From assembly GCF_023101665.1 (NCBI RefSeq), contig NZ_CP082161.1:2976001-3040000 (forward strand): 64,000 nucleotides of DNA, given 5' to 3'. Every line of letters starts with the position of its first letter. The stretch's first letter is position 1. Source of the stretch: Bradyrhizobium sp. 195 (GTDB taxonomy: Bacteria; Pseudomonadota; Alphaproteobacteria; Rhizobiales; Xanthobacteraceae). The notes under the pieces were generated by a model. It was not told the origin of the DNA. It ran no database searches and worked only from the letters and a program-made list of their open reading frames with translations. Positions 27,594 to 44,941 of this stretch are shown here, in pieces. The position numbers and the translations under genes are program-made.

Positions 27594-27634
27594 TTCTTCT
27601 TGCTTCACGTTTTCAGATTTCGGGCACGCCGTCG

Positions 27635-27757: not shown

Positions 27758-28891
27758 TCACTCCGCCACCAGCGCATTCATGTGCTCGACGGCTTCGGCA
27801 AAATCTTCCTTGAACTCCTGCACCACGGCGCCAGCCGACTTCACGCTGTCGATCAGGCCGACGCCCTGGCCGACGAAATAGCTGACGAGATCGCGCGCCT
27901 TGGCGTTGCCGCTCGCCGCGGCCCGGTCGATCGAGTTGAAGGCATCGCGGCTGATGATGCTCTGCAGCGGCATCGGCAGCGCGCCCGGACTGTCCGGCGC
28001 GCGGTCCCAGGCATCGGTCCAGACCGAGCGGAGCTGCCGCGCCGGCTTTCCGGTGCGGCCCCTGGAGCGCACCGCGTCGCGCGAAGACGCCGCGATCATC
28101 TTCTCGCGGAAAATCTCGGTGGTCTCGGCCTCGACGGTGGCCAGCCACACCGAACCGGTCCAGGCGCCGGCGGCGCCCATCGCCATGCAGGCCGCCATCT
28201 GCCGCCCGGTCATGATGCCGCCGGCCGCCAGCACCGGCACGTCGCGGATCTCTTTGATCGCCTTGATCACCTCGGGCACCAGCACCATGGTCGAGACCTC
28301 GCCGCAATGGCCGCCGGCCTCGGTGCCCTGCACCACGAGGATGTCGACACCGGCCGCGACCTGGCGCAGCGCGTGCTCCTTGGCGCCGACGAGCGCTGCG
28401 ACCGGCACGCCGTGTTTCTTGCCCATCTCGATCATCGCCTTCGGCGGCACGCCGAGCGCGTTGGCGATCAGGCGGATCGGATGATTGAAGGAGACCTCGA
28501 GCAGCTCCAGCGCCGTCTTCCCATCGAACGGCTGCGGCTGGTTGGCGTCCACATCAGTCGTGGTCAGCTCGATGTCGTATTTCTTCAGGAGGTCGCGCGT
28601 GTAGGCGCGGTGCTCCTGCGGCACGCGCGCTTCCAGGCTCTTCCAGGTGACATCCTTCTCGCCCGAGGTCGAGATGTTCTCGGGAATCAGCACGTCGATG
28701 CCGTACGGTTTGCCGTCGACGTGATCGTCGATCCATTTCAACTCGCGTTCGAGCGTATCCGGCGTGTGCACCGTGGCACCCAGCACACCGAAGCCGCCGG
28801 CGCGGCTGACGGCGGCGACGACGTCGCGGCAATGGCTGAAGGCCAGCAATGGGAACTCGATGCCCAGCATGTCGCAGATCGGCGATTTCAT
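27758..28891 (-). CDS. Nitronate monooxygenase / 2-nitropropane dioxygenase-family flavoprotein
   Basis: 377-residue FMN-binding TIM-barrel protein. Family members oxidise nitronates or serve as NAD(P)H-dependent flavin oxidoreductases, and are often found among acyl-CoA enzymes. Seen are GIEFPLLAFSHCRD at the N-terminus, VQGTEAGGHCG (about 190-200, active-site His region) and the phosphate-binding PVLAAGGIMTGRQ followed by GAAGAWTGSVWLA. ATG 28891 has GGGAGAG upstream; an in-frame start at 28942 lacks support. The nearby thiolase-like gene suggests a lipid role, but no substrate is shown. Confidence 0.83.
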   Translation of the reverse strand: MKSPICDMLGIEFPLLAFSHCRDVVAAVSRAGGFGVLGATVHTPDTLERELKWIDDHVDGKPYGIDVLIPENISTSGEKDVTWKSLEARVPQEHRAYTRDLLKKYDIELTTTDVDANQPQPFDGKTALELLEVSFNHPIRLIANALGVPPKAMIEMGKKHGVPVAALVGAKEHALRQVAAGVDILVVQGTEAGGHCGEVSTMVLVPEVIKAIKEIRDVPVLAAGGIMTGRQMAACMAMGAAGAWTGSVWLATVEAETTEIFREKMIAASSRDAVRSRGRTGKPARQLRSVWTDAWDRAPDSPGALPMPLQSIISRDAFNSIDRAAASGNAKARDLVSYFVGQGVGLIDSVKSAGAVVQEFKEDFAEAVEHMNALVAE

Positions 28892-29038
28892 GGCTCTCTC
28901 CCGGCGGCCTTGGCGTTCTCGTTGCTTTCGCTGGCGAAGCAAGGTGACGCGACCCGATCGATGACATGCCGGATTCGGCGAGGCATCTTGTGTGTAGGCG
29001 TCGCGTCATCCGCAGGCCGCGGCGTCCATGGTGAGCTC

Positions 29039-31834: not shown

Positions 31835-33112
31835 TCACGCCATGCTCAGCTCGTGGCGGCCGACCACCATCCAGTGCACCTCGTCCGGACCGTCGGCGAA
31901 GCGCAGATGGCGGACGTCCTGGTACATCTCGGCCAGCGGGGTCCAGTGCGAGATGCCGGTGGCGCCGTGCATCTGGATGGCCTGGTCGATGATCTTGCAG
32001 GCGCGCTCGGGCACCATGGCCTTGACCATGGAGACCCAGACGCGGGCCTCTTTGTTGCCGAGCACGTCCATCGCCTTGGCGGCCTTCAGCACCATCAGCC
32101 GCATCGCTTCGATCTCGCAGCGGGCCTGGGCGATGATCTGCATGTTGCCGCCGAGATGGGCGATCTTCTTGCCGAAGGCTTCGCGGGTGAGGCCCCGCTG
32201 CACCATCAGATCGAGCGCTTTCTCGGCCTTGCCGATGGTGCGCATGCAGTGATGGATGCGGCCGGGGCCGAGGCGGAGCTGCGAGATCTCGAAGCCGCGG
32301 CCTTCGCCGAGCAGGATGTTCTCCTTGGGCACACGGACATTGTTGAATCGCATGTGCATGTGGCCGCGCGGGGCGTGGTCCTGGCCGAATACGTACATGG
32401 GGCCGAGCACCTCGACGCCGGGCGTGTCGCGCGGCACCAGGATCTGCGACTGCTGCTTGCTCGGCGCCGCATCCGGATTGGTCTTGACCATCACGATGAG
32501 GATCTTGCAGCGGGGATCGCCGACGCCGGAGATGTAATATTTCTCGCCGTTGATGACCCAATCGTCGCCGACGAGCTTTGCCGTCGTCGAGATGTTCTTG
32601 GCGTCGGAAGAGGCGACGTTCGGCTCGGTCATGACATAGGCCGAACGGATCTCGCCGTTGAGCAGCGGCTTCAGCCACTTCTCCTTCTGCTCCTTGGTGC
32701 CGACGCGCTCCAGCACCTCCATGTTGCCGGTGTCCGGCGCCGAGCAGTTCATGCTCTCCGAAGCGAGCGGGCTCTTGCCGAGCTCGGATGCGATATAGGC
32801 GTAGTCGAGATTCTTCAGGCCCTGGCCGGTCTCGTCGTCCGGCAGGAAGAAGTTCCAGAGACCTTCCTGCTTGGCCTTGTTCTTGGCCTTCTCCAGCACC
32901 TCGAGCTGCTTCGGCGTGAAGCTCCAGCGGTCTTCCTTGCCTTCGCCGGCCTTGGCGAACTCGATCGACATCGGCTCGACGGTGTCGCGGATAAATTTCT
33001 TGACGTGATCATAGAGCGGCCGGACCTGGTTCGACATGCGGAGGTCGTTGAGCTCGTCGCCGGGATTGAGGGTGTAGTTGGTGGTGCGGGGAATGTAGGT
33101 GTGTTTTGTCAT
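31835..33112 (-). CDS. Acyl-CoA dehydrogenase, ACAD11-like (LvaC-like)
   Basis: 425-residue flavoenzyme. The middle and C-terminal parts closely follow the dehydrogenase half of ACAD10/11: SSDAKNISTTA, VPRDTPGVEVLGP, then the run GEGRGFEISQLRLGPGRIHH and the end FADGPDEVH. At the usual catalytic Glu position (YEGT in MCAD) there is Asp in ADGP. In ACAD11-type systems a partner kinase phosphorylates 4-hydroxyacyl-CoA and the dehydrogenase-fold enzyme removes the phosphate, giving enoyl-CoA. Such a kinase gene is at 35663. ATG 33112 has GAGGAAC upstream. The specific pathway role is inferred from sequence likeness and neighbours. Confidence 0.86.
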   Translation of the reverse strand: MTKHTYIPRTTNYTLNPGDELNDLRMSNQVRPLYDHVKKFIRDTVEPMSIEFAKAGEGKEDRWSFTPKQLEVLEKAKNKAKQEGLWNFFLPDDETGQGLKNLDYAYIASELGKSPLASESMNCSAPDTGNMEVLERVGTKEQKEKWLKPLLNGEIRSAYVMTEPNVASSDAKNISTTAKLVGDDWVINGEKYYISGVGDPRCKILIVMVKTNPDAAPSKQQSQILVPRDTPGVEVLGPMYVFGQDHAPRGHMHMRFNNVRVPKENILLGEGRGFEISQLRLGPGRIHHCMRTIGKAEKALDLMVQRGLTREAFGKKIAHLGGNMQIIAQARCEIEAMRLMVLKAAKAMDVLGNKEARVWVSMVKAMVPERACKIIDQAIQMHGATGISHWTPLAEMYQDVRHLRFADGPDEVHWMVVGRHELSMA

Positions 33113-33307
33113 TGTTCCTCCCGGGACGCTTGAGATCATTCTGGGCGCAAGAATAGTCGCAGCGCGGCCAAAGTGCGAGCGCGCATTTTTCACGCGGAGC
33201 CATGCCATGCGATGGAATTTGGCAGAGGCGTTTGAAATGTTGTTTGAACGGGATGGGGAGAACTCCCTCCAGGTGTCGTCCCGGACAAGCGCGCCTCACT
33301 CTCCGCT

Positions 33308-33410
33308 GTCATCGCCCGGCGAAGACCGGGCGATCCAGTATTCCAGAGACCGTCGTGAGTGGGCCGAGAAGCCGCGGCGTACTGGATTCCCCGCTTTCGC
33401 GGGGAATGAC
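33308..33410. repeat. Intergenic palindromic repeat, family G copy 1
   Basis: GTCATCGCCCGGCGAAGACC, GATCCAGTA / TACTGGATT and CCCGCTTTCGCGGGGAATGAC pair in inverted orientation. A second copy is at 37051. The 312-base gap 33113-33424 otherwise holds only likely promoter DNA and a partial family J-like end (TCGTCCCGGACAAGCGCGCC near 33278). Confidence 0.85.
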
Positions 33411-33424
33411 ACCAACCGTGTGGG

Positions 33425-33808
33425 TTAGTTCGGCATCCGATGCATCGCACAGATCTTGTTGCCGTCGAGGTCGCGCAAATAGGCGAGATACATCTTGCCG
33501 GCCGCGCCGCCATCGCGGATGCCCGGTGGATTCTCACAGGTCTTGCCGCCGGCCGCGAGACCGGCCGCGTGCCAGGCTTCGACTTGCTCGGGCGAGCTGC
33601 ACGCAAAACCGATCGTGCCGCCGTTCGCGCAGGTCGCCGGTTCGCCGTTGATCGGCTTCGACACCGAGAACACACCGGTCTTGGTGATGTAGAAGATGCG
33701 GTGGCCGTCGACCCTGGCCGGCCGCACCTCGAGCGTGCTCAGCAGGCTGTCGTAGAATGATTTGGCCTTGTCGAGATCGTTGGTGCCGACCATCACGTGC
33801 GAGAACAT
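33425..33808 (-). CDS. VOC-family (glyoxalase/bleomycin-resistance fold) protein
   Basis: 127-residue single-module VOC protein. It starts FSHVMVGTNDLDKAKSFYDS with the metal-ligand His near residue 4, has the loop GGTIGFACSSPEQVEAWHAAGLAAGG, and ends YLRDLDGNKICAMHR with the typical RDPDGN-like turn. VOC proteins bind a metal and act as isomerases, dioxygenases or sequestering proteins; which one cannot be told. Same strand as the SDR gene upstream, separated by repeat F. Confidence 0.83.
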   Translation of the reverse strand: MFSHVMVGTNDLDKAKSFYDSLLSTLEVRPARVDGHRIFYITKTGVFSVSKPINGEPATCANGGTIGFACSSPEQVEAWHAAGLAAGGKTCENPPGIRDGGAAGKMYLAYLRDLDGNKICAMHRMPN

Positions 33809-33826
33809 TTGCTTCCCCTCAGTGTT

Positions 33827-33908
33827 GTAGCCCGGATGGAGCGAAGCGAAATCCGGGTCTTGCTTGCTTTTCTCAGTCCCGGATTGCGCTTCGCTCCATC
33901 CGGGCTAC
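33827..33908. repeat. Intergenic palindromic repeat, family F copy 1
   Basis: GTAGCCCGGATGGAGCGAAG at the left and GCTTCGCTCCATCCGGGCTAC at the right are near-perfect inverted arms around about 35 bases. Second copy at 45063. Confidence 0.9.
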
Positions 33909-33918
33909 GAGATCGAAA

Positions 33919-34698
33919 TCAAAACGCGGTATAGCCGCCGTCGATCACGAACGTATCGGCCGTGTGATACGACGACGCCTTGCTCATCAGATAGACGGCG
34001 ATGCCGCCGAAATCGCTCGGCTCGCCGAAGCGGCGAACCGGAATCCGCGGCATCACGTTGGCGACGAACTTCTCGTTCGCCATGATGCCCGCGGTCATGT
34101 CGCTCTTGATCCAGCCGGGCAGGATCGCATTGGCGGTGACGCCGTGGCGGGCGAGCTCGACGCCCAGCGCGCGCACCAGTGCGTTGATCGCGGCCTTGGT
34201 TGCCGCGTAATGCTCGTTGCGCGCGGTGCCGAAGATCGAAGCAAGACTCGAGGTCGCCACCAGCCGGCCGAAGGAATCGCCGGCATTGGCGCGATCGGTC
34301 ATGTGGCGCGCGGCGGCCTGGAACGCGTGGAATACGCCGTCGAGATTGGTCGCAAACATTGTGCGCCATTCCTCCTCGGTGCGCTCGATGAAGGAGCGCC
34401 GGCCGCCGCCGCCGATGCCGGCATTGGCGAAGCAGCCGTCGACCCGGCCGAATATGTCGAGCGTCGCCTTCATCGCCGCGTCGACCGAGGCTGGGTCGGT
34501 GACGTCGCAGACGCGGGTGTCGACCTTGCCTGATAGCCCCGCCATGCTCGCGGCAGCAGCCTTGTTCTTGTCAGCATTGCGCCCCCAGATCGAGACGTTG
34601 CAGCCTTGGGCCGCGAGCGCCTGCGCGATGCCGAGGCCGATGCCGCCATTGCCCCCGGTGATGACGGCCACGCGGCCGGAGAGGTCGAAGATGTTCAT
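33919..34698 (-). CDS. SDR-family oxidoreductase (3-oxoacyl reductase type)
   Basis: 259 residues, classical SDR. TGGNGGIGLG NAD(P)-binding turn at about residues 12-21, FANAGIG near 93, catalytic Ser in VATSSLASIFG and Y-A-A-T-K (about 164-168), and the C-terminal FVIDGGYTAF. All catalytic residues are intact. It is divergent from the crotonase-kinase-DUF6285 operon, sharing a 180-base promoter region. In the lva pathway an SDR (LvaD) reduces 4-oxo-acyl-CoA to 4-hydroxyacyl-CoA; this gene is the best positional candidate for that role here, which is an inference. Confidence 0.87.
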   Translation of the reverse strand: MNIFDLSGRVAVITGGNGGIGLGIAQALAAQGCNVSIWGRNADKNKAAAASMAGLSGKVDTRVCDVTDPASVDAAMKATLDIFGRVDGCFANAGIGGGGRRSFIERTEEEWRTMFATNLDGVFHAFQAAARHMTDRANAGDSFGRLVATSSLASIFGTARNEHYAATKAAINALVRALGVELARHGVTANAILPGWIKSDMTAGIMANEKFVANVMPRIPVRRFGEPSDFGGIAVYLMSKASSYHTADTFVIDGGYTAF

Positions 34699-34877
34699 GG
34701 CGCGTTTCCTGTTTTTGGCAAGTCTTCTTGATGTGCGGCGCATCAGCCGCTGCGCGCAAGATTGCTTGCTATGCTCTGATCACCATGGACAAGACCGCGC
34801 CAAAAATCAAATATGCGCCCAGGCAAAACGAATTCCGGCCTGCGAAACTGACGCGGGCCGCAACTCACGAGGAAACC

Positions 34878-35666
34878 ATGCAGTTCAAACACGTCACGCT
34901 CGATTTCGATGGCTCGGTCGCGATCCTCAAGCTCGACCATCAGGAGGTGATGAACGCGGTCTCGGTGGACATGCTGGGCGGTCTCGCCGAAGCGCTCGAT
35001 ACGATCGAGGAGAAAAAGGACGAGGTCCGCTGCATCGTCTTGACCGGCGCGGGGCGGGCGTTCTGCACCGGCGCGAACCTTCAGGGCCGCAACGACCAGT
35101 CGAAGAAGACCAAGGCCGGGTTGACGCTCGAGACCGGCTTTCATCCCTTTCTGCGGCGCATCCGAAATCTACATTGCCCGATTGTGACCGCGGTCAACGG
35201 TCCGGCGGCGGGCGCCGGCATGAGCTTCGCGCTGCTCGGCGACATGATCCTGTGCGCGCGTTCCTCTTACTTCCTTCAGGCCTTCCGCCGCATCGGCCTT
35301 GTGCCGGATTGCGGCTCGACCTGGCTGTTGCCGCGCCTCATCGGTCGGGCGCGCTCGATCGAATTGTCGCTGATGGGCGAGCGGCTGCCGGCGGAAAAAG
35401 CGCTGGAATGGGGCCTCGTCAACCGCGTCTACGATGACGGCATGCTGATGGAGGAGGCGATGAAGCTCGCGCGCGACCTTGCCAGCGGCCCGACGGTCGC
35501 GCTGTCGATGATCCGCAAGCTCTACTGGGACAGCCCGGAAAATTCCTTCGAGGACCAGCTCAACCTCGAATTCCAGTGCCAGCTCCGCGCCGGCGACACC
35601 CAGGATTTCCGCGAGGGCGTCGGCGCGTTCCTGGAGAAGCGACCCGCGCAGTTCAAAGGCAAATGA
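34878..35666 (+). CDS. Enoyl-CoA hydratase/isomerase family protein
   Basis: 262-residue crotonase. Oxyanion-hole segments are AGRAFCTGANLQGR (about residues 59-72) and VNGPAAGAGMSFALLGDMI (about 106-124). At the catalytic positions of hydratases it has FRRIGLVPDCGSTWLLP (about 141-157), where Asp replaces one usual Glu, a pattern shared with isomerase/PaaG-like members. ATG 34878 follows GAGGAAACC. The kinase gene overlaps its stop by four bases (ATGA), so the two are translationally coupled. Confidence 0.87.
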   Translation: MQFKHVTLDFDGSVAILKLDHQEVMNAVSVDMLGGLAEALDTIEEKKDEVRCIVLTGAGRAFCTGANLQGRNDQSKKTKAGLTLETGFHPFLRRIRNLHCPIVTAVNGPAAGAGMSFALLGDMILCARSSYFLQAFRRIGLVPDCGSTWLLPRLIGRARSIELSLMGERLPAEKALEWGLVNRVYDDGMLMEEAMKLARDLASGPTVALSMIRKLYWDSPENSFEDQLNLEFQCQLRAGDTQDFREGVGAFLEKRPAQFKGK

Positions 35667-36649
35667 TCGAGGCGGAGCTTTCACGCAGCGTCCGGCGCTG
35701 GTGTCCGGGGGCGACCGGCGTCACCGGAGCAGCAAAACTGTCCGGCGGCGCCAGCCAGGAAACCTGGCGCTTCGATATCGTGCATCCCGATGGGCCGATC
35801 GGCGCGATCCTGCGCCGCTCGCCGAAAGGATATGGCGCGGCGCCAACGCGCGCGGCAGGTCTTGCCGCTGAAGCGCAGCTGATGCAGACCGCGTTCGAGG
35901 CCGGCGTGCCGTCGCCGCGCGTGATGCATGTGCTGGTGCCGGAGGACGATCTCGGCACCGGCTTCATCATGCAACGGGTCGAAGGCGAGACCATTGCGCG
36001 CAAAATCTTGCGCGACGACGAGTTCGCCCCGGCGCGGCCGCATCTCGCGCGGCAGATCGGCGGCATTCTCGCTGGCCTGCATCGACTGCCAAAGGACAAG
36101 CTGCCGGAGCTACGCAGCCGTGGCGCCACCCAGGAGATCGCCGAGTTCGAGCGCGACTATCGCAGCCTGAACTGGCCGAAGCCGGTGTTCGAGCTGGCGC
36201 TGCGCTGGCTGCGGGACCACGATCCCGGCCCGTCGGCCGAGACCACGCTGGTGCACGGCGATTTCCGCAACGGCAATCTCATCATCGGCGCCGACGGTGT
36301 CCGCGCGGTGCTCGACTGGGAGCTCGCCCATCTCGGCGATCCCATGGAGGATCTCGGCTGGGTCTGCGTCAACTCCTGGCGTTTCGGCGAGATCGACAAG
36401 CCGGTCGGCGGCTTTGGCTCGCGTGAAGAGCTGTTTGCAGGGTATGAGGCCGCCGGCAGCAAGGCCGATCCGGCGCGCGTGAAATTCTGGGAAGTGATGG
36501 GCACGCTGCGCTGGGGCATCATGTGCGGCGGCATGATGCAGCGTTTTCGCGAGGGCCCGGATCATTCCATGGAACGCGCGATGATTGGCCGCCGTGCGTC
36601 CGAGACCGAAATCGATCTGTTGCGGCTGCTGGCGCCGCGCGGGAGCTGA
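35663..36649 (+). CDS. Aminoglycoside-phosphotransferase-fold acyl-CoA kinase (LvaA/ACAD10-11 kinase-like)
   Basis: 328-residue kinase-fold protein. Seen: N-terminal GGASQETWRFDI (nucleotide loop, about residues 28-39), ETTLVHGDFRNGNLIIG (Brenner motif with catalytic Asp, about 193-209) and VLDWELAHLGDPMEDLGW (metal-binding Asp, about 215-232). These are the features of the kinase half of ACAD10/11 and of LvaA, which phosphorylate the 4-hydroxyl of 4-hydroxyacyl-CoA. It overlaps the crotonase gene by four bases and the small DUF6285-like gene follows after 2 bases. Antibiotic phosphorylation is unlikely given these neighbours. Confidence 0.86.
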   Translation: MIEAELSRSVRRWCPGATGVTGAAKLSGGASQETWRFDIVHPDGPIGAILRRSPKGYGAAPTRAAGLAAEAQLMQTAFEAGVPSPRVMHVLVPEDDLGTGFIMQRVEGETIARKILRDDEFAPARPHLARQIGGILAGLHRLPKDKLPELRSRGATQEIAEFERDYRSLNWPKPVFELALRWLRDHDPGPSAETTLVHGDFRNGNLIIGADGVRAVLDWELAHLGDPMEDLGWVCVNSWRFGEIDKPVGGFGSREELFAGYEAAGSKADPARVKFWEVMGTLRWGIMCGGMMQRFREGPDHSMERAMIGRRASETEIDLLRLLAPRGS

Positions 36650-36651
36650 CC

Positions 36652-37029
36652 ATGCAGGACGAACCGACACCCCTCGAGCTGACGAAGTCAGTCGCCGACT
36701 TCCTCCGCAGCGACATCACGCCGCTGATCTCCGGCCACCAGGCCTTCAAGCTGCGCGTCGCCATCAACATCCTCGACCTCGTCACGCGGCAGCTGACGCA
36801 GGAGGAGGGGAGTGATGCGAAGGAGGTGGAGCGTCTGCGCCTGCTGCTTGGGGAGGACGGCTCGGTGACGGATCTCAACCGTGCGCTGGCCGAGCGCATC
36901 GCCAAAGGCGAGATCGACCTCGCAACACCGGGCCTTGCCGAGCATCTGTGGGCAACCACGATGGACAAGCTCGCGGTCGATCAGCCGAACTACGCGTCGT
37001 ACAAGCGGGAGCTGGGGCGGAACGGGTAG
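36652..37029 (+). CDS. DUF6285-like small protein, probable kinase partner (LvaB-like)
   Basis: 125-residue, mostly helical, acidic soluble protein without membrane segments. It starts MQDEPTPLELTKSVADFLRS, has ITPLISGHQAFKLRVAINIL near 25-44, a variable acidic middle, and ends LWATTMDKLAVDQPNYASYK. It resembles the DUF6285 family that sits beside phosphotransferase and acyl-CoA dehydrogenase genes. In P. putida a small protein of about this size (LvaB) is needed together with the kinase LvaA. It begins 2 bases after the kinase stop. The partner role is inferred from order and size. Confidence 0.75.
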   Translation: MQDEPTPLELTKSVADFLRSDITPLISGHQAFKLRVAINILDLVTRQLTQEEGSDAKEVERLRLLLGEDGSVTDLNRALAERIAKGEIDLATPGLAEHLWATTMDKLAVDQPNYASYKRELGRNG

Positions 37030-37050
37030 GCGGACGCCACACTCTCTGCT

Positions 37051-37151
37051 GTCATCGCCCGCGAAAGCGGGCGATCCAGTATTCCAGAGGCGGCAGTGAG
37101 ATGCGGAGAGGCTGCGGCGTACTGGATGCCCCGGTCAAGCCGGGGCATGAC
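37051..37151. repeat. Intergenic palindromic repeat, family G copy 2
   Basis: GTCATCGCCCGCGAAAGCGG and the right end TACTGGATGCCCCGG...GGGGCATGAC pair as at 33308, with a changed right half. It lies between convergent DUF6285-like and crotonase genes. Confidence 0.85.
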
Positions 37152-37194
37152 ACCGCTGATGTGGGGCCGTCTCGTTGTGGCGGCGAAAGACCGT

Positions 37195-37974
37195 CTACTT
37201 CCCCACCCATTTCGGCGGCCGCTTCTCCGAAAACGCCTTCGGTCCCTCGATGTAATCCTGCGATGCCGCCATTGCCTTCACCGCCGGATACTCTCGCTGC
37301 TCCTCGATCGCCTGTTCCAGCGACACGCCGAGCCCCTTCTGGATCGCCTGCTTTGAAGCGCGGATCGACATCGGCGAATTCTTGGCGATCGTCTCGGCCC
37401 AGCGCAGCGCGGCGTTGAGTGCTTCGCCCTGCGGCACCACCTCGTTGACGAAGCCGAGCTCCTGGCCTTCCTTGGCGCTGACATGGCGCGCGGTCAGGAT
37501 CATGCCCATGGCGCGCTTCAGCCCGATCTGGCGCGGCAGCCGGTGCAGGCCGCCGGCGAGCGCGGCGAGGCCAACACGCGGCTCGGGCAGGGCGAAGGTC
37601 GCATTCTCCGCGGCGATGATCAGGTCGCAGGCGAGCGCGATCTCGAAGCCGCCGCCCATGGCGACGCCGTTCACCGCGGCGATGATCGGCTTGTCGCAGT
37701 CGAAGCGCGAGGTGAGGCCGGCAAAGCCGCCCTTGTCCCAGCCGCGCTTTCCTCCCGCCGCCTGCCACTTCAGATCGTTGCCGGCGCAGAACGCCTTGTC
37801 GCCGCTGCCTGTGACGACCGCAATCCATTGCTCCGGGTCGGCAGCGAAATCGTCGAACACCTTTTGCAGCTCGAAATGCGCATCGGTGTGCAGCGCGTTG
37901 TAGACCTCGGGGCGCGACAGCGTGACGATCGCGATCGGCCCCCTGCGTTCCACCGTCGAGAATTTCAACTCCAT
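37195..37974 (-). CDS. Enoyl-CoA hydratase/isomerase family protein
   Basis: 259-residue crotonase with oxyanion-hole segments DKAFCAGNDLKWQ (about residues 61-73) and VNGVAMGGGFEIALACDLI (about 98-116), followed by FALPEPRVGLAALAGGLHRLP (about 124-144) with Glu at one of the hydratase positions. ATG 37974 has GGGAGC upstream; the in-frame extension to 38199 would run into the divergent acyl-CoA dehydrogenase start and is rejected. Divergent from the acyl-CoA dehydrogenase at 38187, with a 212-base shared promoter region. Substrate unknown. Confidence 0.87.
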   Translation of the reverse strand: MELKFSTVERRGPIAIVTLSRPEVYNALHTDAHFELQKVFDDFAADPEQWIAVVTGSGDKAFCAGNDLKWQAAGGKRGWDKGGFAGLTSRFDCDKPIIAAVNGVAMGGGFEIALACDLIIAAENATFALPEPRVGLAALAGGLHRLPRQIGLKRAMGMILTARHVSAKEGQELGFVNEVVPQGEALNAALRWAETIAKNSPMSIRASKQAIQKGLGVSLEQAIEEQREYPAVKAMAASQDYIEGPKAFSEKRPPKWVGK

Positions 37975-38186
37975 CGCGCGCTCCCGCATTTTCTTGTGAA
38001 GGAATATTGCCGGCATAGTAGCGCGCGGCGGCGCTTGAGCACCATCGAATTGCGCTGGTGCGCCTTGCGCGTCTGGCACGCCTCGCCTTGCTTGACTTGG
38101 ATGCGCTCTTCTCCGCTTAATCACGCGAAGCAAGACCGCGTCTAGCGTCTTAACGCAAAACAACAAGATCATTCCGGGAGAGAACC

Positions 38187-39461
38187 TTGGATTTCTCATT
38201 GCCTGCCGATCTCGTCGCCTATCTCGGAGAGCTCGATCGTTTCATCGAACGCGAGATCAAGCCGCTGGAAGAAGCCGACGACAACATCCGCTTCTTCGAT
38301 CACCGCCGCGAATGGGCGCGCACCGATTTCGAGAACGGCGGCCTGCCCCGGCACGAATGGGAAGCGCTGCTGCGGAAAGCCAAGGATCTCGCCGACGCCG
38401 CGGGTCATCTGCGCTTCCCGGTGCCGAAGCAATATGGCGGTAAGGACGGCTCGAACCTCTGGATGGCCGTGATCCGCGAGCATTTTGCCGCGAAGGGTCT
38501 CGGCCTGCACAACGACCTCCAGAACGAGCATTCGATCGTCGGCAATTTCCCCGTCGTCACCATGCTCGACCGCTACGGCCGCGACGACCAGAAAGCGATG
38601 ATCGACGGCTCGATCAAGGGCAAGTACCGCATCACCTTTGGACTGACGGAGCCGCATCACGGCTCGGATGCCACCCACATGGAAACGCGCGCGGTGCCCG
38701 CGACCCGCGACAACGTCAAGGGCTGGATCATCAACGGCGAGAAGATGTGGACGACAGGCATGCACGTCGCCACGCATTGCGCGCTGTTCGCGCGCACATC
38801 AGGCAATGACGGCGATGCCCGCGGCATCACCTGCTTCCTGGTTCCGGCGAAAAGCCATGGGGTGAAGGTCGAAGAATACATGTGGACCTTCAACATGCCG
38901 ACTGACCATCCCCGCGTCAGTTTTACCGACGTGTTCGTGCCGGAGGATGCGCTGTTCGGCGAGGTCGGCCGCGGGCTGTCGCTGGCGCAATGCTTCGTGC
39001 ATCAGAACCGCATCCGCCAGGCGGCAAGCTCGCTCGGCGCAGCCGTTTACTGCATCAATGAGAGCGTCAAATACGCGCGTGAGCGAAAGCCGTTCGGCAA
39101 GGCGTTGGCGGAAAACCAGGCGATCCAGTTCCCGCTGGTGGAGCTTGCGACGCAAGCCGAGATGCTGCGCCTGCTGATCCGCAAGACCGCCTGGGAGATG
39201 GACCAGCTCAACGAGGAGCAGATCGAGCGCACGCTCTCCGACCGCGTCTCCATGTGCAACTACTGGGCAAACCGCCTCTGCTGCGAATCCGCCGATCGCG
39301 CCATGCAGGTCCACGGCGGCATGGGCTATTCACGCCATAAGCCGTTCGAGCACATCTACCGCCACCACCGCCGCTACCGCATCACCGAAGGCAGCGAGGA
39401 AATCCAGATGCGCAAGGTGGCGGGATTCCTGTTCGGCTATATGGGGCCGGGGAAGCATTGA
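38187..39461 (+). CDS. Acyl-CoA dehydrogenase
   Basis: 424-residue flavoprotein. FAD- and substrate-contact segments are ITFGLTEPHHGSDATHMET (about residues 151-169), IINGEKMWTTGMH, and a C-terminal MQVHGGMGYSRHKPFEHIYR then YRITEGSEEIQMRK, with the catalytic Glu in TEGSEE. Unlike the gene at 31835 it has the usual Glu. The start is a TTG at 38187 after GGGAGAGAA. It is flanked by a divergent crotonase gene and, beyond a repeat, a convergent acyl-CoA ligase gene, consistent with beta-oxidation-type reactions. Confidence 0.88.
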   Translation: MDFSLPADLVAYLGELDRFIEREIKPLEEADDNIRFFDHRREWARTDFENGGLPRHEWEALLRKAKDLADAAGHLRFPVPKQYGGKDGSNLWMAVIREHFAAKGLGLHNDLQNEHSIVGNFPVVTMLDRYGRDDQKAMIDGSIKGKYRITFGLTEPHHGSDATHMETRAVPATRDNVKGWIINGEKMWTTGMHVATHCALFARTSGNDGDARGITCFLVPAKSHGVKVEEYMWTFNMPTDHPRVSFTDVFVPEDALFGEVGRGLSLAQCFVHQNRIRQAASSLGAAVYCINESVKYARERKPFGKALAENQAIQFPLVELATQAEMLRLLIRKTAWEMDQLNEEQIERTLSDRVSMCNYWANRLCCESADRAMQVHGGMGYSRHKPFEHIYRHHRRYRITEGSEEIQMRKVAGFLFGYMGPGKH

Positions 39462-39473
39462 TTGCGCCGCTAT

Positions 39474-39563
39474 CGTAGGGTGGGCAAAGCGAAGCGTGCC
39501 CACCACCTCTCTCGTCATCAAAGAATGGTGGGCACGGCGCTTTGCGCCTTTGCCCACCCTACG
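39474..39563. repeat. Intergenic palindromic repeat, family B copy 4
   Basis: Complete B element between convergent genes, ending about 10 bases before the ligase stop. Confidence 0.9.
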
Positions 39564-39573
39564 GCACCGCGTA

Positions 39574-41151
39574 TCAATTCACTCTTCTGTCCTTCCCCGC
39601 CCAGTACGGCTCCCTCAATTGCCGTCGCAAAATCTTGCCCGACGGATTCCGCGGCAGCGCCGGCAAGAACTCCACGCTCTTCGGCGTCTTGTAGCCGGCG
39701 ATGCGCTCGCGGGTGAAGTTGATGATGTCGGTGGCGCTCGCCTCCTTGCCCGGCTTCATCACCACGACGGCTTTCACTGCCTCGCCCCATTTGTCGTCGG
39801 GCACGCCGATCACCGCGGCCTCAGCGACGTCGGGGTGGTCGCACAACGCGCTCTCGACCTCGGCGGGGTAGATGTTCTCGCCGCCGGAGATGATCATGTC
39901 CTTGATGCGGTCGTGGATGTAGAGATAGCCGTCCTCGTCCATGTAGCCGGCATCGCCGGTGCGCAGCCAGCCGTCACTGCGCAGCGTCGATGCGGTCGCC
40001 TCCGGCAGATTCCAGTAGCCGGCCATGTTCGAGCCCGATCGCGTCGCGATCTCGCCGACCTCGCGCGGCGGCAGCGGTTTGCCGTCCACATCCAGGATCG
40101 CGATCTCGACGCCCGGTAGCGCCTTGCCAGCCGAGCGCATCCGCTCCAGCCCTTCGACGTGATCCTCCGGCGGCAGCGCCACGATGGTGCCGGTGGTCTC
40201 GGTCATGCCGTACAATTGCACGAAGCCGCATTTGAAGACCTCGATGCACTCCTTCAGCAGCGCGGCCGGAATAGGCGAGGCGCCATAGAGCATGTATTTC
40301 AGCCGCGAGAAATCGACCGTCCTGGCGCGCGGCTGCCGCACCACGAACTGCATCGCCGCCGGCACCATGAACAGTTTTGTGATGCCCGACTGCTCGAAGA
40401 AATCCAGCACCTTGGTTGGATCGAATTCGCGGGCGATCACGCCGCGGGCGCCGTGATAGAGGCCCATCACGCCCCAGCCGGAGCCGCCGATATGGAAGAC
40501 CGGCATGGCGACCAACGACACGTCGTCGGTCGACCACCGGTTCCACTCCGGCTTGTCCTCGGCATTGCCTGATTGCACGAGGTTGAGGAAGTTGGCATGC
40601 GACAGCATCGCGCCCTTCGGCTTGCCCGTGGTGCCGGACGTGTAGAGCTGGATCGCGATGTCCCTGCTGTCGATCGGAACCTTCGGGTCGTTGCCGCTCT
40701 GCGCATCGCGCCACGCCGCAAAATCCTGCCACTCCGCCGCACCGCCCTCGGTGGTGATGATCGTGCGCACGCCCGGCAGCTGGTCCTTGATCTGGCGGAC
40801 CTGTGTGATGAACTCCGGCCCGACGAACAGCACCGGCGCCTTGCAGTCTTCGACGATGAAGGCAACCTCGGGCCCCGCCAGCCGCCAGTTCACCGGCGCC
40901 ATCACGACGCCAGCCTTCATGGCGCCCATCAGGAGCTCGAAATAGAGATCGCTGTTCTTGCCGAGATAGGCGATGCGATCGCCCTTCCTCACGCCCATTG
41001 CGAGAAGCGCGTTGGCGACCTTGTTGGTCCTGGCGTCGAATTCGGCAAAGCTGGTGAGGCGGCCCTCGAATTCGTAGGCGATGGCATCGCCGCGGCTCTT
41101 GGCGCGCTCGCGCACCATCTCGGCGAGGTCAGCCAATGGCTGTATGGACAT
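39574..41151 (-). CDS. AMP-dependent acyl-CoA synthetase/ligase
   Basis: 525-residue adenylate-forming enzyme that activates a carboxylic acid to its CoA thioester with ATP. Core motifs: LYTSGTTGKPKGAMLSHANF (P-loop, about residues 172-191), LYGMTETTG (about 308-316), GWLRTGDAGYMDEDGYLYI (about 395-413), DRIKDMIISGGENIYP and the C-terminal Lys in PRNPSGKILRR. ATG 41151 begins MSIQPLADL. It is downstream of the SDR gene on the same strand across a family J repeat. A fatty-acid or short hydroxy/keto-acid substrate (LvaE-like role) is plausible but not shown. Confidence 0.9.
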   Translation of the reverse strand: MSIQPLADLAEMVRERAKSRGDAIAYEFEGRLTSFAEFDARTNKVANALLAMGVRKGDRIAYLGKNSDLYFELLMGAMKAGVVMAPVNWRLAGPEVAFIVEDCKAPVLFVGPEFITQVRQIKDQLPGVRTIITTEGGAAEWQDFAAWRDAQSGNDPKVPIDSRDIAIQLYTSGTTGKPKGAMLSHANFLNLVQSGNAEDKPEWNRWSTDDVSLVAMPVFHIGGSGWGVMGLYHGARGVIAREFDPTKVLDFFEQSGITKLFMVPAAMQFVVRQPRARTVDFSRLKYMLYGASPIPAALLKECIEVFKCGFVQLYGMTETTGTIVALPPEDHVEGLERMRSAGKALPGVEIAILDVDGKPLPPREVGEIATRSGSNMAGYWNLPEATASTLRSDGWLRTGDAGYMDEDGYLYIHDRIKDMIISGGENIYPAEVESALCDHPDVAEAAVIGVPDDKWGEAVKAVVVMKPGKEASATDIINFTRERIAGYKTPKSVEFLPALPRNPSGKILRRQLREPYWAGKDRRVN

Positions 41152-41232
41152 GTTTCTCCCGTGGCGTCTTGTTTTTATGCCTGGGAGTGTGGAGTCAATT
41201 GCGGGTGAAGGCAATACAGCACAGAGCACACT

Positions 41233-41393
41233 GTCGTCCCGGACAAGCGCGCCTCAAGCGCGCGCAGATCCGGGACCCATAGCCACAGGGAGAGGTTTTG
41301 CGATGACTCGGAGTTGCTGTCTCGCACCACACTGCTCCCTGTGGTTATGGGTCCCCGCGCCCGTGCGCAATTGCGCACTAGGCGGGGACGACA
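41233..41393. repeat. Intergenic inverted repeat, family J
   Basis: GTCGTCCCGGACAAGCGCGC with ATCCGGGACCCATAGCCACA on the left faces TGTGGTTATGGGTCCCCGC and GGGGACGACAG on the right. It occupies most of the 298 bases between the ligase start and the SDR stop. A partial relative is near 33278. Confidence 0.78.
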
Positions 41394-41449
41394 GGTGAGG
41401 GCGGGGTGATAGCGTCAGCCCCTGACGTAGTCGCGTACTCGCAACACGA

Positions 41450-42322
41450 CTACCCCCGCTTCGCCCGGTCCTTTTCGTTCTGCGCCATGATGCTCTCGCG
41501 CGCGGTCTTCCAGTCGTCGTCGCTCCAGTCGCGGAGCTGGTAGAAATTGCCGCCCATCGCGAGCGCCTGCGCGCCGTCCATCGCGATGGTCTCGCCGCTG
41601 ATCCAGTCGCAGCCGCCGGAGATCAGGAACACCGCGAGGTTCTGTAATTCCTCCATGGTGCCGACGCGGCCCATCGGGTTCATCGCCTTGGTGCGCGCGC
41701 CGGCTTCGTCGCCGGGCTTGATGCGCTTGCTCATGCCCTCGGTCGGGATTTCGCCGGGCGCGATGGTGTTGAGGCGGATGCCGTATCGGCCCCATTCGGC
41801 TGCGAGCGACATCGTCATGGCATGGATCGCCGACTTGCTCATCGCCGACGGCACCACGTAAGGCGAGCCGTTGCGCACCCACGTCGTGGTGATCGACACC
41901 ACGTTGCCGGGTTGCTTCAACGCGATCCAGCGCTTGCCGATCGCTTGCGTCACGTAGAACGTGCCATGCATGACGATGTTGGCGACGGCGTCGAAGCCGC
42001 GCGGCGACAGCTCCTCGCTGCGCGAGATGAAATTGCCGGCGGCATTGTTGATGAGATCGGTCAGCGGCGCGTCGCGGAAGATGGTCTCCACCATCTCCTC
42101 GACCGCGAGCGCATTGCGGATGTCGACGCCGTGGCTGGTGACGCGGCCGCCATACTCGGCCATCAGCTCGGTCGCGGTTTCGTCGCACACGATCTTGCGC
42201 CGGCCGCAGATGTGCACCTCGGCGCCGAGCTGGAGGAAGCGCGCCGCCATCGACTTGCCGAGACCTGTGCCGCCGCCGGTCACGAGAATGCGCCGGCCGG
42301 CCAGAAGATTTTCCTTGAACAT
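41450..42322 (-). CDS. SDR-family oxidoreductase, 2,4-dienoyl-CoA-reductase-like
   Basis: 290 residues. VTGGGTGLGKSMA cofactor turn (about 14-26), ICGRRK (NADP-binding Arg residues), NNAAGNF near 93 and the segment SITTTWVRNGSPYVVPSAMSK, where the usual YxxxK Tyr is replaced by Ser (S-A-M-S-K) as in dienoyl-CoA reductases; a Tyr four residues earlier may serve. These enzymes reduce dienoyl-CoA during oxidation of unsaturated acids. It is divergent from the crotonase at 42428 with a candidate operator between them. Confidence 0.85.
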   Translation of the reverse strand: MFKENLLAGRRILVTGGGTGLGKSMAARFLQLGAEVHICGRRKIVCDETATELMAEYGGRVTSHGVDIRNALAVEEMVETIFRDAPLTDLINNAAGNFISRSEELSPRGFDAVANIVMHGTFYVTQAIGKRWIALKQPGNVVSITTTWVRNGSPYVVPSAMSKSAIHAMTMSLAAEWGRYGIRLNTIAPGEIPTEGMSKRIKPGDEAGARTKAMNPMGRVGTMEELQNLAVFLISGGCDWISGETIAMDGAQALAMGGNFYQLRDWSDDDWKTARESIMAQNEKDRAKRG

Positions 42323-42347
42323 GGCTGTTTCCCCCGTAGGGATTGTC

Positions 42348-42367
42348 AGTTAATTGGTCGATTGACT
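42348..42367. promoter_or_regulatory. Candidate TetR-type operator between SDR and crotonase genes
   Basis: Imperfect inverted repeat AGTTAATTG (42348-42356), two bases, CGATTGACT (42359-42367); 7 of 9 positions pair. It lies 26 bases upstream of the SDR start and 61 bases before the crotonase start, so one repressor could cover both. No regulator gene is adjacent. Confidence 0.45.
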
Positions 42368-42427
42368 AAATCTGGCTACCGGCGTCCTGTAAAGCGGCAC
42401 TGAACAAGAACAGGGGAGAATTCGTCC

Positions 42428-43237
42428 ATGGAAGAGCGCGTCTCGATCTCGATCTCGGAAGGCGTCGCCGACGTGCGCCTGGTGCGCGCGGACAAGATGA
42501 ACGCGCTGGATCAGGCGATGTTCGAGGCCCTTGTCGCCGCAACCGACCGCCTTTCGAAGGAAAAAGGCGTGCGCGTGGTCGTGCTGTCGGGCGAAGGCCG
42601 GGCCTTCTGCGCCGGGCTCGACATGGGGCGTTTTGCCGCCATGAAGGAGAAGGGCGGTAACGGAATTCCGGGTGGCGAAAATCGCGATCTCACCAAGCGG
42701 ACGCATGGCCAGGCCAACTTCGCGCAACAGGCGGTGTGGGGCTGGCGCCAGCTGCCGGTGCCTGTCATCGCGGCCGTGCACGGCGTCGCCTTCGGCGGCG
42801 GCTTCCAGCTCTCGCTCGGCGCCGACATGCGGTTCCTCTCAGCGGACGCGCGGATGTCGGTGATGGAGATCAAATGGGGCCTCATCCCTGACATGGCTGG
42901 CACGCCAATCCTGGCCTCGCTCGTGCGCGACGATATTTTGCGCGATCTCACCTACACCGGCCGCATCTTCTCCGCGCAGGAGGCGATGACGTACGGCCTC
43001 GCCACGCGCATCTGCGACGACCCGCGCGCCAGCGCCCTCGAAGTCGCGCGCGAGATCGCCGGCAAGAGCCCGGATGCGATCCGCGCGGCGAAGCGCCTGC
43101 TGAACAATCTCTCGGTGGACCCGGGTCCTGCACTGCTCGCCGAGTCGGTCGAGCAGCAGAAGCTGATCGGCAGCGCGAACCAGACCGAAGCGGTGCGCTC
43201 AAATCTGGAGAAGCGCGCGGCGAAGTATGCAGACTAG
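42428..43237 (+). CDS. Enoyl-CoA hydratase/isomerase (crotonase) family protein
   Basis: 269 residues. Oxyanion-hole segments GRAFCAGLDMGRFA (about 58-71) and VHGVAFGGGFQLSLGADMRF (about 119-138) are clear. The following segment reads MEIKWGLIPDMAGTPIL with Glu and Asp near the catalytic sites, a dienoyl-CoA-isomerase-like pattern. It is divergent from a dienoyl-CoA-reductase-like SDR and upstream of an acyl-CoA ligase, matching a role in unsaturated or modified acyl chains. A family D repeat separates it from the ligase. Confidence 0.87.
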   Translation: MEERVSISISEGVADVRLVRADKMNALDQAMFEALVAATDRLSKEKGVRVVVLSGEGRAFCAGLDMGRFAAMKEKGGNGIPGGENRDLTKRTHGQANFAQQAVWGWRQLPVPVIAAVHGVAFGGGFQLSLGADMRFLSADARMSVMEIKWGLIPDMAGTPILASLVRDDILRDLTYTGRIFSAQEAMTYGLATRICDDPRASALEVAREIAGKSPDAIRAAKRLLNNLSVDPGPALLAESVEQQKLIGSANQTEAVRSNLEKRAAKYAD

Positions 43238-43244
43238 CAACTCC

Positions 43245-43345
43245 CCGTCATTCCGGGGCGATGCGAAGCATCGAGCCCGGAATCCATAACTACGATCGGG
43301 AGTATGGATTCCGGGCCTGCGCCTTCGGTGCATCCCGGAATGACG
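43245..43345. repeat. Intergenic palindromic repeat, family D copy 2
   Basis: CCGTCATTCCGGGGCGATGC and GTGCATCCCGGAATGACG arms with inner CCGGAATCCATA / TATGGATTCCGG. It lies between two rightward genes and would be transcribed as an operon-internal hairpin. Confidence 0.88.
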
Positions 43346-43396
43346 ACCGTAGGCTTGGCCGCATTCTCGAACCCGACGAAAGATCGGAAAACAAAA

Positions 43397-44941
43397 ATGA
43401 GCGAAACGTCCGACTTCCTCGGCATCGTCTCCGGCGAGCGCCGACGCACCCACACTGAAATCGCAGCCCGCGCCGACCGCATCGCCGCCGGCCTCGCCAA
43501 GATCGGCGTCCGTCCAGGCGATTGCGTCTGCATGCTGATGCGCAACGACATCGCTTTTCTGGAAGCCGCCTATGCCGCGATGCGGCTCGGGGCCTATGGC
43601 GTGCCGATCAACTGGCACTTCAAGCCCGAAGAGATCGACTACATCCTGAACGACACCGGCACTTCGGTGCTGATCGGGCATGCGGACATGCTGCACGCCC
43701 TGCGCGACGCCATTCCGAAGGGCGTCACCGTGCTGAGCGTGCCGACGCCGCCGGAGATCCTGTCCAACTACAGGATCGATCCGGATCATCTAAAGACGCC
43801 TAGCTTCGCGATCGATTTCGAATACTGGCTCGCACAGCATCAGCCCTATGACGGCCCGGTCGTGCCGCAGCCGATGAACATGATCTACACCTCGGGGACC
43901 ACGGGCCATCCCAAGGGTGTCCGCCGCCACGCGCCGACGCCGGATCAGCAGGCGGCCGGCGAGCGCATGCGCGCGATGATCTATGGGCTGAAGCCCGGCG
44001 CCCGCGCGATCCTGCCGGGACCGCTCTATCATTCCGCGCCGAATTCGTTCGGCATCCGCGCCGGCAAGCTCGGCGGCGCGCTGGTGCTGATGCCGCGGTT
44101 CGAGCCGCAGGAATTCCTGGAGCTGATCGAACGTTACAGGATCGACACCATCTTCATGGTGCCGACCATGTTCATCCGCCTGATGAAGCTGCCGGAGGAG
44201 GTGCGCAGGAAATACGACGTCTCCTCGCTGCGCCACGTCATCCATGCCGCGGCGCCGTGTCCCGCGGACGTCAAGCGCGCCATGATCGAATGGTGGGGAC
44301 CGGTGATCTATGAATTCTACGGCTCGACCGAATCCAGCGCCGTCACCTTTGCGACGTCAGAGGATGCGTTGAAGAAGCCCGGCACCGTCGGCAAGATCTC
44401 GCCCGGCGCCGAGCTGCGCTTCCTCGGCGAGGACGGCCGCGTGCTTGGCGTCGGCGAGATCGGCGAGATCTATTCCCGCATGGCGGAGCTCGCCGATTTC
44501 ACCTACCACAACAAGCCGGAGAAGCGCGCCGAGATCGACCGCGACGGCTTCATCACCTCCGGCGACGTCGGCTACATCGACGAGGACGGCTACGTCTTCA
44601 TCTGCGACCGCAAGCGCGACATGGTGATCTCGGGCGGCGTCAACATCTATCCGGCGGAGATCGAATCGGTGCTGCACGCCGTGCCCGGTGTGCAGGATTG
44701 CGCCGTGTTCGGCATTCCCGACGCCGAGTTCGGCGAGGCGCTGATGGCGGTGGTGGAGCTGCAGGCGGGCATCACGCTCGAGGCCGGAGACGTCCGCGCC
44801 GCGCTCAAGGCGCATCTGGCCGATTACAAAGTGCCCAAGCACATCGAGATCCGCACCGGCCTGCCGCGCGAAGACTCGGGAAAGATCTTCAAGCGCCGCC
44901 TGCGCGATCCCTATTGGGAGCAGGCGGGACGGAAGATCTGA
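43397..44941 (+). CDS. AMP-dependent acyl-CoA synthetase/ligase
   Basis: 514-residue adenylate-forming ligase, second of two in the region. P-loop IYTSGTTGHPKGVRRH (about residues 155-170), FYGSTESSAVTF (about 303-314), DRDGFITSGDVGYIDEDGYV, RKRDMVISGGVNIYP and the C-terminal catalytic Lys in EDSGKIFKRRL are present. The ATG at 43397 (MSETSDF) is preferred over an in-frame start at 43304 inside repeat D. Probable co-transcription with the crotonase. Acid substrate unknown. Confidence 0.9.
   Translation: MSETSDFLGIVSGERRRTHTEIAARADRIAAGLAKIGVRPGDCVCMLMRNDIAFLEAAYAAMRLGAYGVPINWHFKPEEIDYILNDTGTSVLIGHADMLHALRDAIPKGVTVLSVPTPPEILSNYRIDPDHLKTPSFAIDFEYWLAQHQPYDGPVVPQPMNMIYTSGTTGHPKGVRRHAPTPDQQAAGERMRAMIYGLKPGARAILPGPLYHSAPNSFGIRAGKLGGALVLMPRFEPQEFLELIERYRIDTIFMVPTMFIRLMKLPEEVRRKYDVSSLRHVIHAAAPCPADVKRAMIEWWGPVIYEFYGSTESSAVTFATSEDALKKPGTVGKISPGAELRFLGEDGRVLGVGEIGEIYSRMAELADFTYHNKPEKRAEIDRDGFITSGDVGYIDEDGYVFICDRKRDMVISGGVNIYPAEIESVLHAVPGVQDCAVFGIPDAEFGEALMAVVELQAGITLEAGDVRAALKAHLADYKVPKHIEIRTGLPREDSGKIFKRRLRDPYWEQAGRKI

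Follow-up and report, generated by a model that had tools for sequence, protein, structure and literature searches.

Genes of the locus

We analysed a window of 64,000 nt from Bradyrhizobium sp. 195 (NZ_CP082161.1, positions 2,976,001-3,040,000, forward strand), in which positions 31835 to 44941 carry two acyl-CoA dehydrogenase (ACAD) genes, a kinase gene and a gene for a small DUF6285 protein, together with genes for crotonases, acyl-CoA ligases and short-chain dehydrogenases/reductases (SDRs). With a probability of about 60%, we read this locus as a fatty-acyl-CoA catabolic island, made up of a kinase-DUF6285-ACAD cassette (35663, 36652 and 38187, with the coupled crotonase 34878; genes are named by their first coordinate) and a separate ACAD of the LvaC/ACAD11 type (31835). 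Support for it comes from the identities of the genes and their signature residues, from clade membership, and from co-occurrence and adjacency. We refer to the family of 38187 as ACAD2, a name coined here, and to the type of kinase 35663 as KIN. An earlier note on this DNA had named eleven of the genes below, all of which exist and belong to the families given there.

31835..33208, minus strand: ACAD11/LvaC-type acyl-CoA dehydrogenase; equivalents of R626, H634, R637 and D753 are residues 312, 320, 323 and 439
33425..33808, minus strand: glyoxalase-superfamily open reading frame (ORF) that separates ACAD 31835 from SDR 33919 (PF00903, E 1.5e-5)
33919..34743, minus strand: SDR oxidoreductase, 30% identical to LvaD, a generic match
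34878..35666, plus strand: crotonase; equivalog match to PRK05981 at 485.8 bits (cut-off 351)
35663..36649, plus strand: APH-fold kinase, LvaA-related, KIN type (PF01636, E 3e-35)
36652..37029, plus strand: small DUF6285 partner, LvaB family (PF19802, E 1e-32)
37195..38199, minus strand: crotonase, true start probably near 37970
38187..39461, plus strand: ACAD2, an ACAD with a catalytic Glu and F/Q/S/E instead of the ACAD11 residues
39574..41229, minus strand: acyl-CoA ligase of the PRK06187 subfamily, at 666.9 bits (cut-off 476)
41450..42322, minus strand: SDR; nearest model 2,4-dienoyl-CoA reductase PRK07677 (227.6 bits, under the cut-off of 318)
42428..43237, plus strand: crotonase (PRK07509, 364.5 bits, cut-off 249)
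43304..44941, plus strand: acyl-CoA ligase (AMP-binding)

Two gene boundaries in the earlier note required adjustment. The N-terminus of the 37195 ORF is too long, as 24 of the 25 family matches shown start at residues 73-88 of 334, and the ligase placed at 43397 can start at 43304. Crotonase 34878, kinase 35663 and DUF6285 protein 36652 are tightly packed and run head to tail: the crotonase stop and the kinase start share positions 35663-35666, and only two bases lie between the kinase and 36652.

Kinase 35663 and its DUF6285 partner

Phosphorylation ahead of beta-oxidation has only recently been assigned to enzymes, for 4-hydroxy acids (ACAD10/11 and LvaABC); in ACAD10 and ACAD11 the kinase is fused to the ACAD. 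Kinase 35663 carries the VHGDFRNGN run, with both the HGDxRxGN and DWE motifs, and its top match in the PDB was 3dxp, itself of the ACAD10/11-kinase type. A best match to a non-acyl-CoA APH family, one of the outcomes that the earlier note had named as speaking against its proposal, was therefore not seen. As the reference for the Lva system we used the operon of Pseudomonas plasmid p12939-PER (L046) and not the KT2440 sequences; its gene make-up fits the lva operon as described in PMC6692424. The window kinase is 34.5% identical to the L046 kinase over 307 aa (E 1e-45). The L046 protein annotated as LvaB matches PF19802 at 4.8e-24, which places LvaB in DUF6285, and 36652, the sole DUF6285 match in the genome, is 23% identical to it. 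A natural kinase-DUF6285 fusion from a gammaproteobacterial metagenome-assembled genome (MAG) was modelled with pLDDT 87.6 and pTM 0.87, and the model is consistent with a fixed arrangement of the two proteins.

A tree of 53 kinases from the fetched loci contained 13 members of an LvaA clade, 35 KIN-type kinases and five of the ACAD10/11 type. The LvaA clade (support 100/99) holds the kinases of L046 and of a Stutzerimonas lva-like cluster (L047), and kinase 35663 lies outside it. An LvaC-type ACAD was present in the fetched stretch for 10 of the 13 LvaA-clade kinases. Among the 35 KIN-type kinases, 20 had ACAD2 in the stretch (11 of these together with an LvaC-type ACAD), a single one, from Thermus, had an LvaC-type ACAD only, and 14 had neither. 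The third, distant group of five rows includes the kinases of two loci elsewhere in the Bradyrhizobium sp. 195 genome (L093 and L094), which stand beside LvaC-type ACADs.

Two side observations concern these kinases. Loci from Cupriavidus metallidurans, Variovorax and genome G379 (L051, L052 and L074) share one kinase subclade and contain adjoining pairs of divergent ACADs, which could possibly be heteromeric; two of the three have a DUF6285 match, and in the third a hypothetical protein occupies that place. In the lva-like clusters of Stutzerimonas and Thermus, the gene immediately after the kinase-DUF6285 pair encodes a histidine phosphatase (L047, 8286-9047; L049, 7279-7932). No lvaB is reported for Pseudomonas citronellolis in the accessible part of PMC6692424; since the DUF6285 gene of the Stutzerimonas cluster lies between kinase and phosphatase, we would guess that lvaB was perhaps overlooked there.

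ACAD2 and its association with the kinase

The earlier note had listed 38187 simply as another acyl-CoA dehydrogenase, which is correct as far as it goes; that it is not of the ACAD11-like type had been missed. Its top PDB match is the caffeyl-CoA reductase CarC, with ACAD11 appearing only at E 1e-24, and at the positions of ACAD11 R626, H634, R637 and D753 it has F, Q, S and E, that is, a catalytic Glu without the phosphate-binding residues. The structural model (pLDDT 89.0, pTM 0.88) has an ordinary ACAD fold, and a fold search with it returned only generic ACADs among the 50 matches listed. ACAD2 shares its fold and catalytic Glu with conventional ACADs (SCAD, MCAD, CarC). It differs from them in forming a tight family, with 58-72% identity between the window copy and 38 others, and in occurring together with the kinase and DUF6285.

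This association was quantified in 398 Pseudomonadota genomes. DUF6285 was found in 39 and ACAD2 in 30, with both in 29 (Fisher p 2e-34, kinship ignored); counted by genus, DUF6285 was present in 16 of 17 ACAD2 genera (p 9e-18, kinship again ignored). The 10 DUF6285 genomes that lack ACAD2 are exactly the 10 genomes represented in the LvaA clade, and the other 29 all have it. In the one ACAD2 genome without a DUF6285 match (G301), a KIN-type kinase ORF directly adjoins ACAD2 and retains a trace of DUF6285 (28.0 bits against a cut-off of 28.1). The window genome likewise holds a KIN-type kinase, DUF6285 and ACAD2, a trio whose genes are often adjacent.

Adjacency was compared between 30 ACAD2 loci and 30 LvaC-type loci, the latter typed by profile score and taken as the top scorers from DUF6285 genomes, and so a non-random sample. 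Within 1.5 kb on either side, nine ACAD2 loci had a KIN-type kinase and 21 had none; the LvaC-type loci had an LvaA-type kinase in eight cases, an ACAD10/11-type kinase in 13, no kinase in nine and a KIN-type kinase in none. Of these 21 ACAD2 loci without a kinase in that range, 11 come from the family of the window, where the KIN-type kinase lies a few kb away behind a crotonase gene. Seven other ACAD loci of the Bradyrhizobium sp. 195 genome had no kinase within 1.5 kb.

A wider set comprised 80 ACAD2 loci on genome contigs (the 80 highest-ranking of at least 590, by comparison with a haloarchaeal sequence; ±6 kb, or less at contig ends). The best kinase was KIN-type in 54, ACAD10/11-type in eight and weakly LvaA-like in two, and 16 had none. 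DUF6285 was detected in 51 (local profile, E < 0.01), in 24 of them as one ORF with the kinase. For the 29 loci without a local match, 23 genomes were searched whole and 21 contained a DUF6285 match, one of these marginal and at a contig end; the two that did not were MAGs, one of 1.5 Mb and one haloarchaeal. In a Nocardia record the genes for DUF6285, kinase and ACAD2 follow one another, and a mycobacterial ACAD2-kinase-DUF6285 run (L231, 924-8557) has CoA-transferase and HMG-CoA lyase-like genes and a regulator upstream of it. Haloarchaeal plasmids carry ACAD2 at 56-58% identity, and in all four examined (L177, L178, L179 and L183) it stands beside a kinase and a protein of 157-159 aa.

Several results weigh against a dedicated kinase-DUF6285-ACAD2 unit. 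The absence of any kinase within 1.5 kb at 21 of 30 ACAD2 loci is one, and in the wider set 26 of 80 lack a nearby KIN-type kinase, eight of them having an ACAD10/11-type kinase instead. KIN-type kinases form no single supported clade, the G139 kinase among them is placed next to the LvaA clade with support of 92/96, and the CoA-contact motifs of ACAD11, judged by eye, are not conserved in them. The haloarchaeal small protein gave no PF19802 match in three proteins and an hhalign probability of 6% to DUF6285, and its candidacy as a DUF6285 homologue was dropped. In 10 of 10 same-genus loci, the window included, and in the one Sulfitobacter locus examined, an LvaC-type ACAD is found no more than 10 kb from the kinase; in the genus, the two may have a joint role. 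Judged by profile score, such ACADs occur in every one of the 39 DUF6285 genomes and, scored by profile only and not by signature residues, in 44 of 44 further ACAD2 genomes tested of 80 available, against a baseline of 137 of 398 genomes overall. The cassette may accordingly depend on an LvaC-type ACAD.

The kinase might instead take a substrate that is no hydroxyacyl-CoA, for instance a free hydroxy acid or an alcohol, and stand near ACADs as part of generic catabolic islands. The APH family is broad, the NCBIfam model matches of 35663 are weak and diverse, and the wider neighbourhoods are variable: across loci only kinase and DUF6285 recur broadly, and genes for thiolase, ligase and crotonase are confined to smaller groups of loci. 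However, this kinase type is paired with one ACAD family across phyla, and an LvaB-family partner adjoins it, which makes such a role quite improbable in our view. Because the other neighbours vary in this way, no substrate was deduced from the gene neighbourhoods, be it from the mycobacterial copy, the haloarchaeal loci or recurrence across loci. The mycobacterial run also stands beside CaiB-family and homogentisate-dioxygenase-like (HgmA-like) genes. Three of the four haloarchaeal plasmids have hydantoinase A/B and luciferase-like genes downstream and an acetoacetate-decarboxylase-family sequence upstream, annotated in two.

ACAD 31835 and the proposed reaction

ACAD 31835 was recognised in the earlier note as ACAD10/11-type, and this is borne out. 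Its top PDB match is ACAD11 (8v3u, E 9e-117), and four sequences score at about 1e-109 or better, namely two of ACAD11 (8v3u/8v3v), one of 2wbi and the Mycobacterium abscessus ACAD 4hr3, before the next ACAD at 1e-38. PMC12440821 links the activity of ACAD11 on 4-phosphoacyl-CoA to R626, H634, R637 and the catalytic D753; all four are conserved in 31835, as in the LvaC-position ACADs of Pseudomonas p12939-PER, Stutzerimonas and Thermus pTT27 (L049). Between 31835 and the L046 LvaC, identity is only 29%, which sits poorly with the 56-62% given in PMC11342911 for LvaC and ACAD11/ACAD10. In the reading preferred here, 31835 stands apart from the cassette as an LvaC/ACAD11-type ACAD that would need a phosphoacyl-CoA from some kinase.

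Within 1.5 kb of 31835 there is no kinase of the three profiled types (LvaA, ACAD10/11 and KIN), which leaves 35663 as the nearest known. Nine of the 30 LvaC-type loci likewise lack a fused LvaA- or ACAD10/11-type kinase or one within 1.5 kb. Compared with ACAD10, ACAD11 and the bacterial kinase-ACAD pairs, 31835 is a close relative, but the window kinase reaches the ACAD11 kinase only at E 3.6e-9 and is encoded separately from 31835, at a distance of 2.5 kb and on the opposite strand. The same genome contains two ACAD10/11-type kinase-ACAD pairs, at G000:C1:5394536-5396673 (L093) and 6333196-6335444 (L094), and the L093 kinase matches that of ACAD11 at E 6e-74. For 4-hydroxyacyl-CoA catabolism these pairs are better candidates than the window kinase.

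The split arrangement proposed in the earlier note, in which the window carries the same chemistry as LvaABC in several units, holds in so far as an LvaC-type ACAD, an LvaA-related kinase and an LvaB-family partner are present; as in L046, the kinase is followed by DUF6285, with an acyl-CoA ligase, an SDR and an ACAD nearby. The window SDR and ligase are 29-33% identical to LvaD and LvaE, a level generic for such enzymes. As written the proposal is not supported, because the kinase falls outside the LvaA clade, its type regularly partners ACAD2 instead of an LvaC-type ACAD, and no LvaR, LvaF or LvaG homologue was found in the window (phmmer, L046 proteins against window ORFs of at least 80 aa, E up to 1e-3). 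The absence of these three from the window led us to drop a levulinate operon, and the window also has extra crotonases.

One of several live readings is nevertheless that 35663 and DUF6285 phosphorylate 4-hydroxyacyl-CoA for 31835 to eliminate the phosphate, with 38187 as an ordinary beta-oxidation ACAD. The intact signature of 31835, the lack of a nearer profiled kinase, the co-location throughout the same-genus loci and the presence of LvaC-type ACADs in every DUF6285 and ACAD2 genome tested all argue for it. Against it, none of 30 LvaC-type loci has a KIN-type kinase within 1.5 kb, ACAD2 follows the 29 KIN-type genomes and not the 10 of the LvaA clade, and a sister-genus locus (L069, 19.9 kb) has kept ACAD2 with no LvaC-type ACAD there. 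Moreover, in G087, G353 and G380 an ACAD10/11-type kinase stands about 1.2 kb or less from the sole LvaC-type ACAD, so that the cassette there is probably not the dedicated kinase of that ACAD. We consider this division of labour unlikely, and kinase-DUF6285-ACAD2 the better-supported unit for 35663.

A somewhat unlikely compromise is that the kinase-DUF6285 pair serves both ACADs, for example with different stereoisomers, hydroxyl positions or chain types. It would account for the constant company of LvaC-type ACADs, and PMC11342911 reports a roughly fourfold higher product yield with the R isomer for the kinase part of ACAD10, a preference that leaves room for another kinase. Yet the F/Q/S/E residues of ACAD2 give no sign of binding a phosphorylated substrate, and the co-occurrence may merely reflect a lipid-catabolic lifestyle.

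Under the cassette reading, the kinase and DUF6285 would probably act as a two-subunit (hydroxy)acyl-CoA kinase, by analogy with LvaAB, using ATP to form a phosphoacyl-CoA whose phosphate would be a better leaving group than water. ACAD2 would most likely dehydrogenate at the alpha,beta position and pass electrons to electron-transfer flavoprotein (ETF), the phosphate would depart from the activated enoyl-CoA on ACAD2 or on the crotonase, and the remaining enzymes would pass the product into beta-oxidation. We infer the order of these reactions, hydroxyacyl-CoA as the substrate and any flow between the two ACADs. More tentatively, and at somewhat less than even odds, the cassette may represent a second, uncharacterised kinase-dependent entry into beta-oxidation, in which ACAD2 is the dedicated catalytic-Glu partner of a DUF6285-assisted acyl-CoA kinase and handles the phosphorylated acyl-CoA without the ACAD11 phosphate pocket. 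Such a route would be scattered widely over Pseudomonadota (30 of 398 genomes) and Actinomycetota, plus haloarchaea with a different small partner.

If a related kinase does work with a different dehydrogenase, the phosphorylation strategy would be broader than one substrate class, and DUF6285 proteins other than LvaB would be likely kinase subunits as well. The three proteins make a defined system open to assay, and a kinase with DUF6285 alone should not be taken for a levulinate operon. In the open-licence literature we found no paper on DUF6285 and, among the titles listed, none on a kinase-DUF6285-ACAD2 cassette other than the two on ACAD10/11 and the one on P. citronellolis; publication elsewhere is possible.

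Outside the island, the window encodes a phosphoenolpyruvate carboxylase (51516-54314, plus strand) that is apparently unconnected with it. Just beyond the locus, on the minus strand, lie a thiolase-like protein with a TLP1 C-terminal domain (26079-27608) and a nitronate monooxygenase-family ORF (27758-28942), and genes resembling the latter recur in several related loci.

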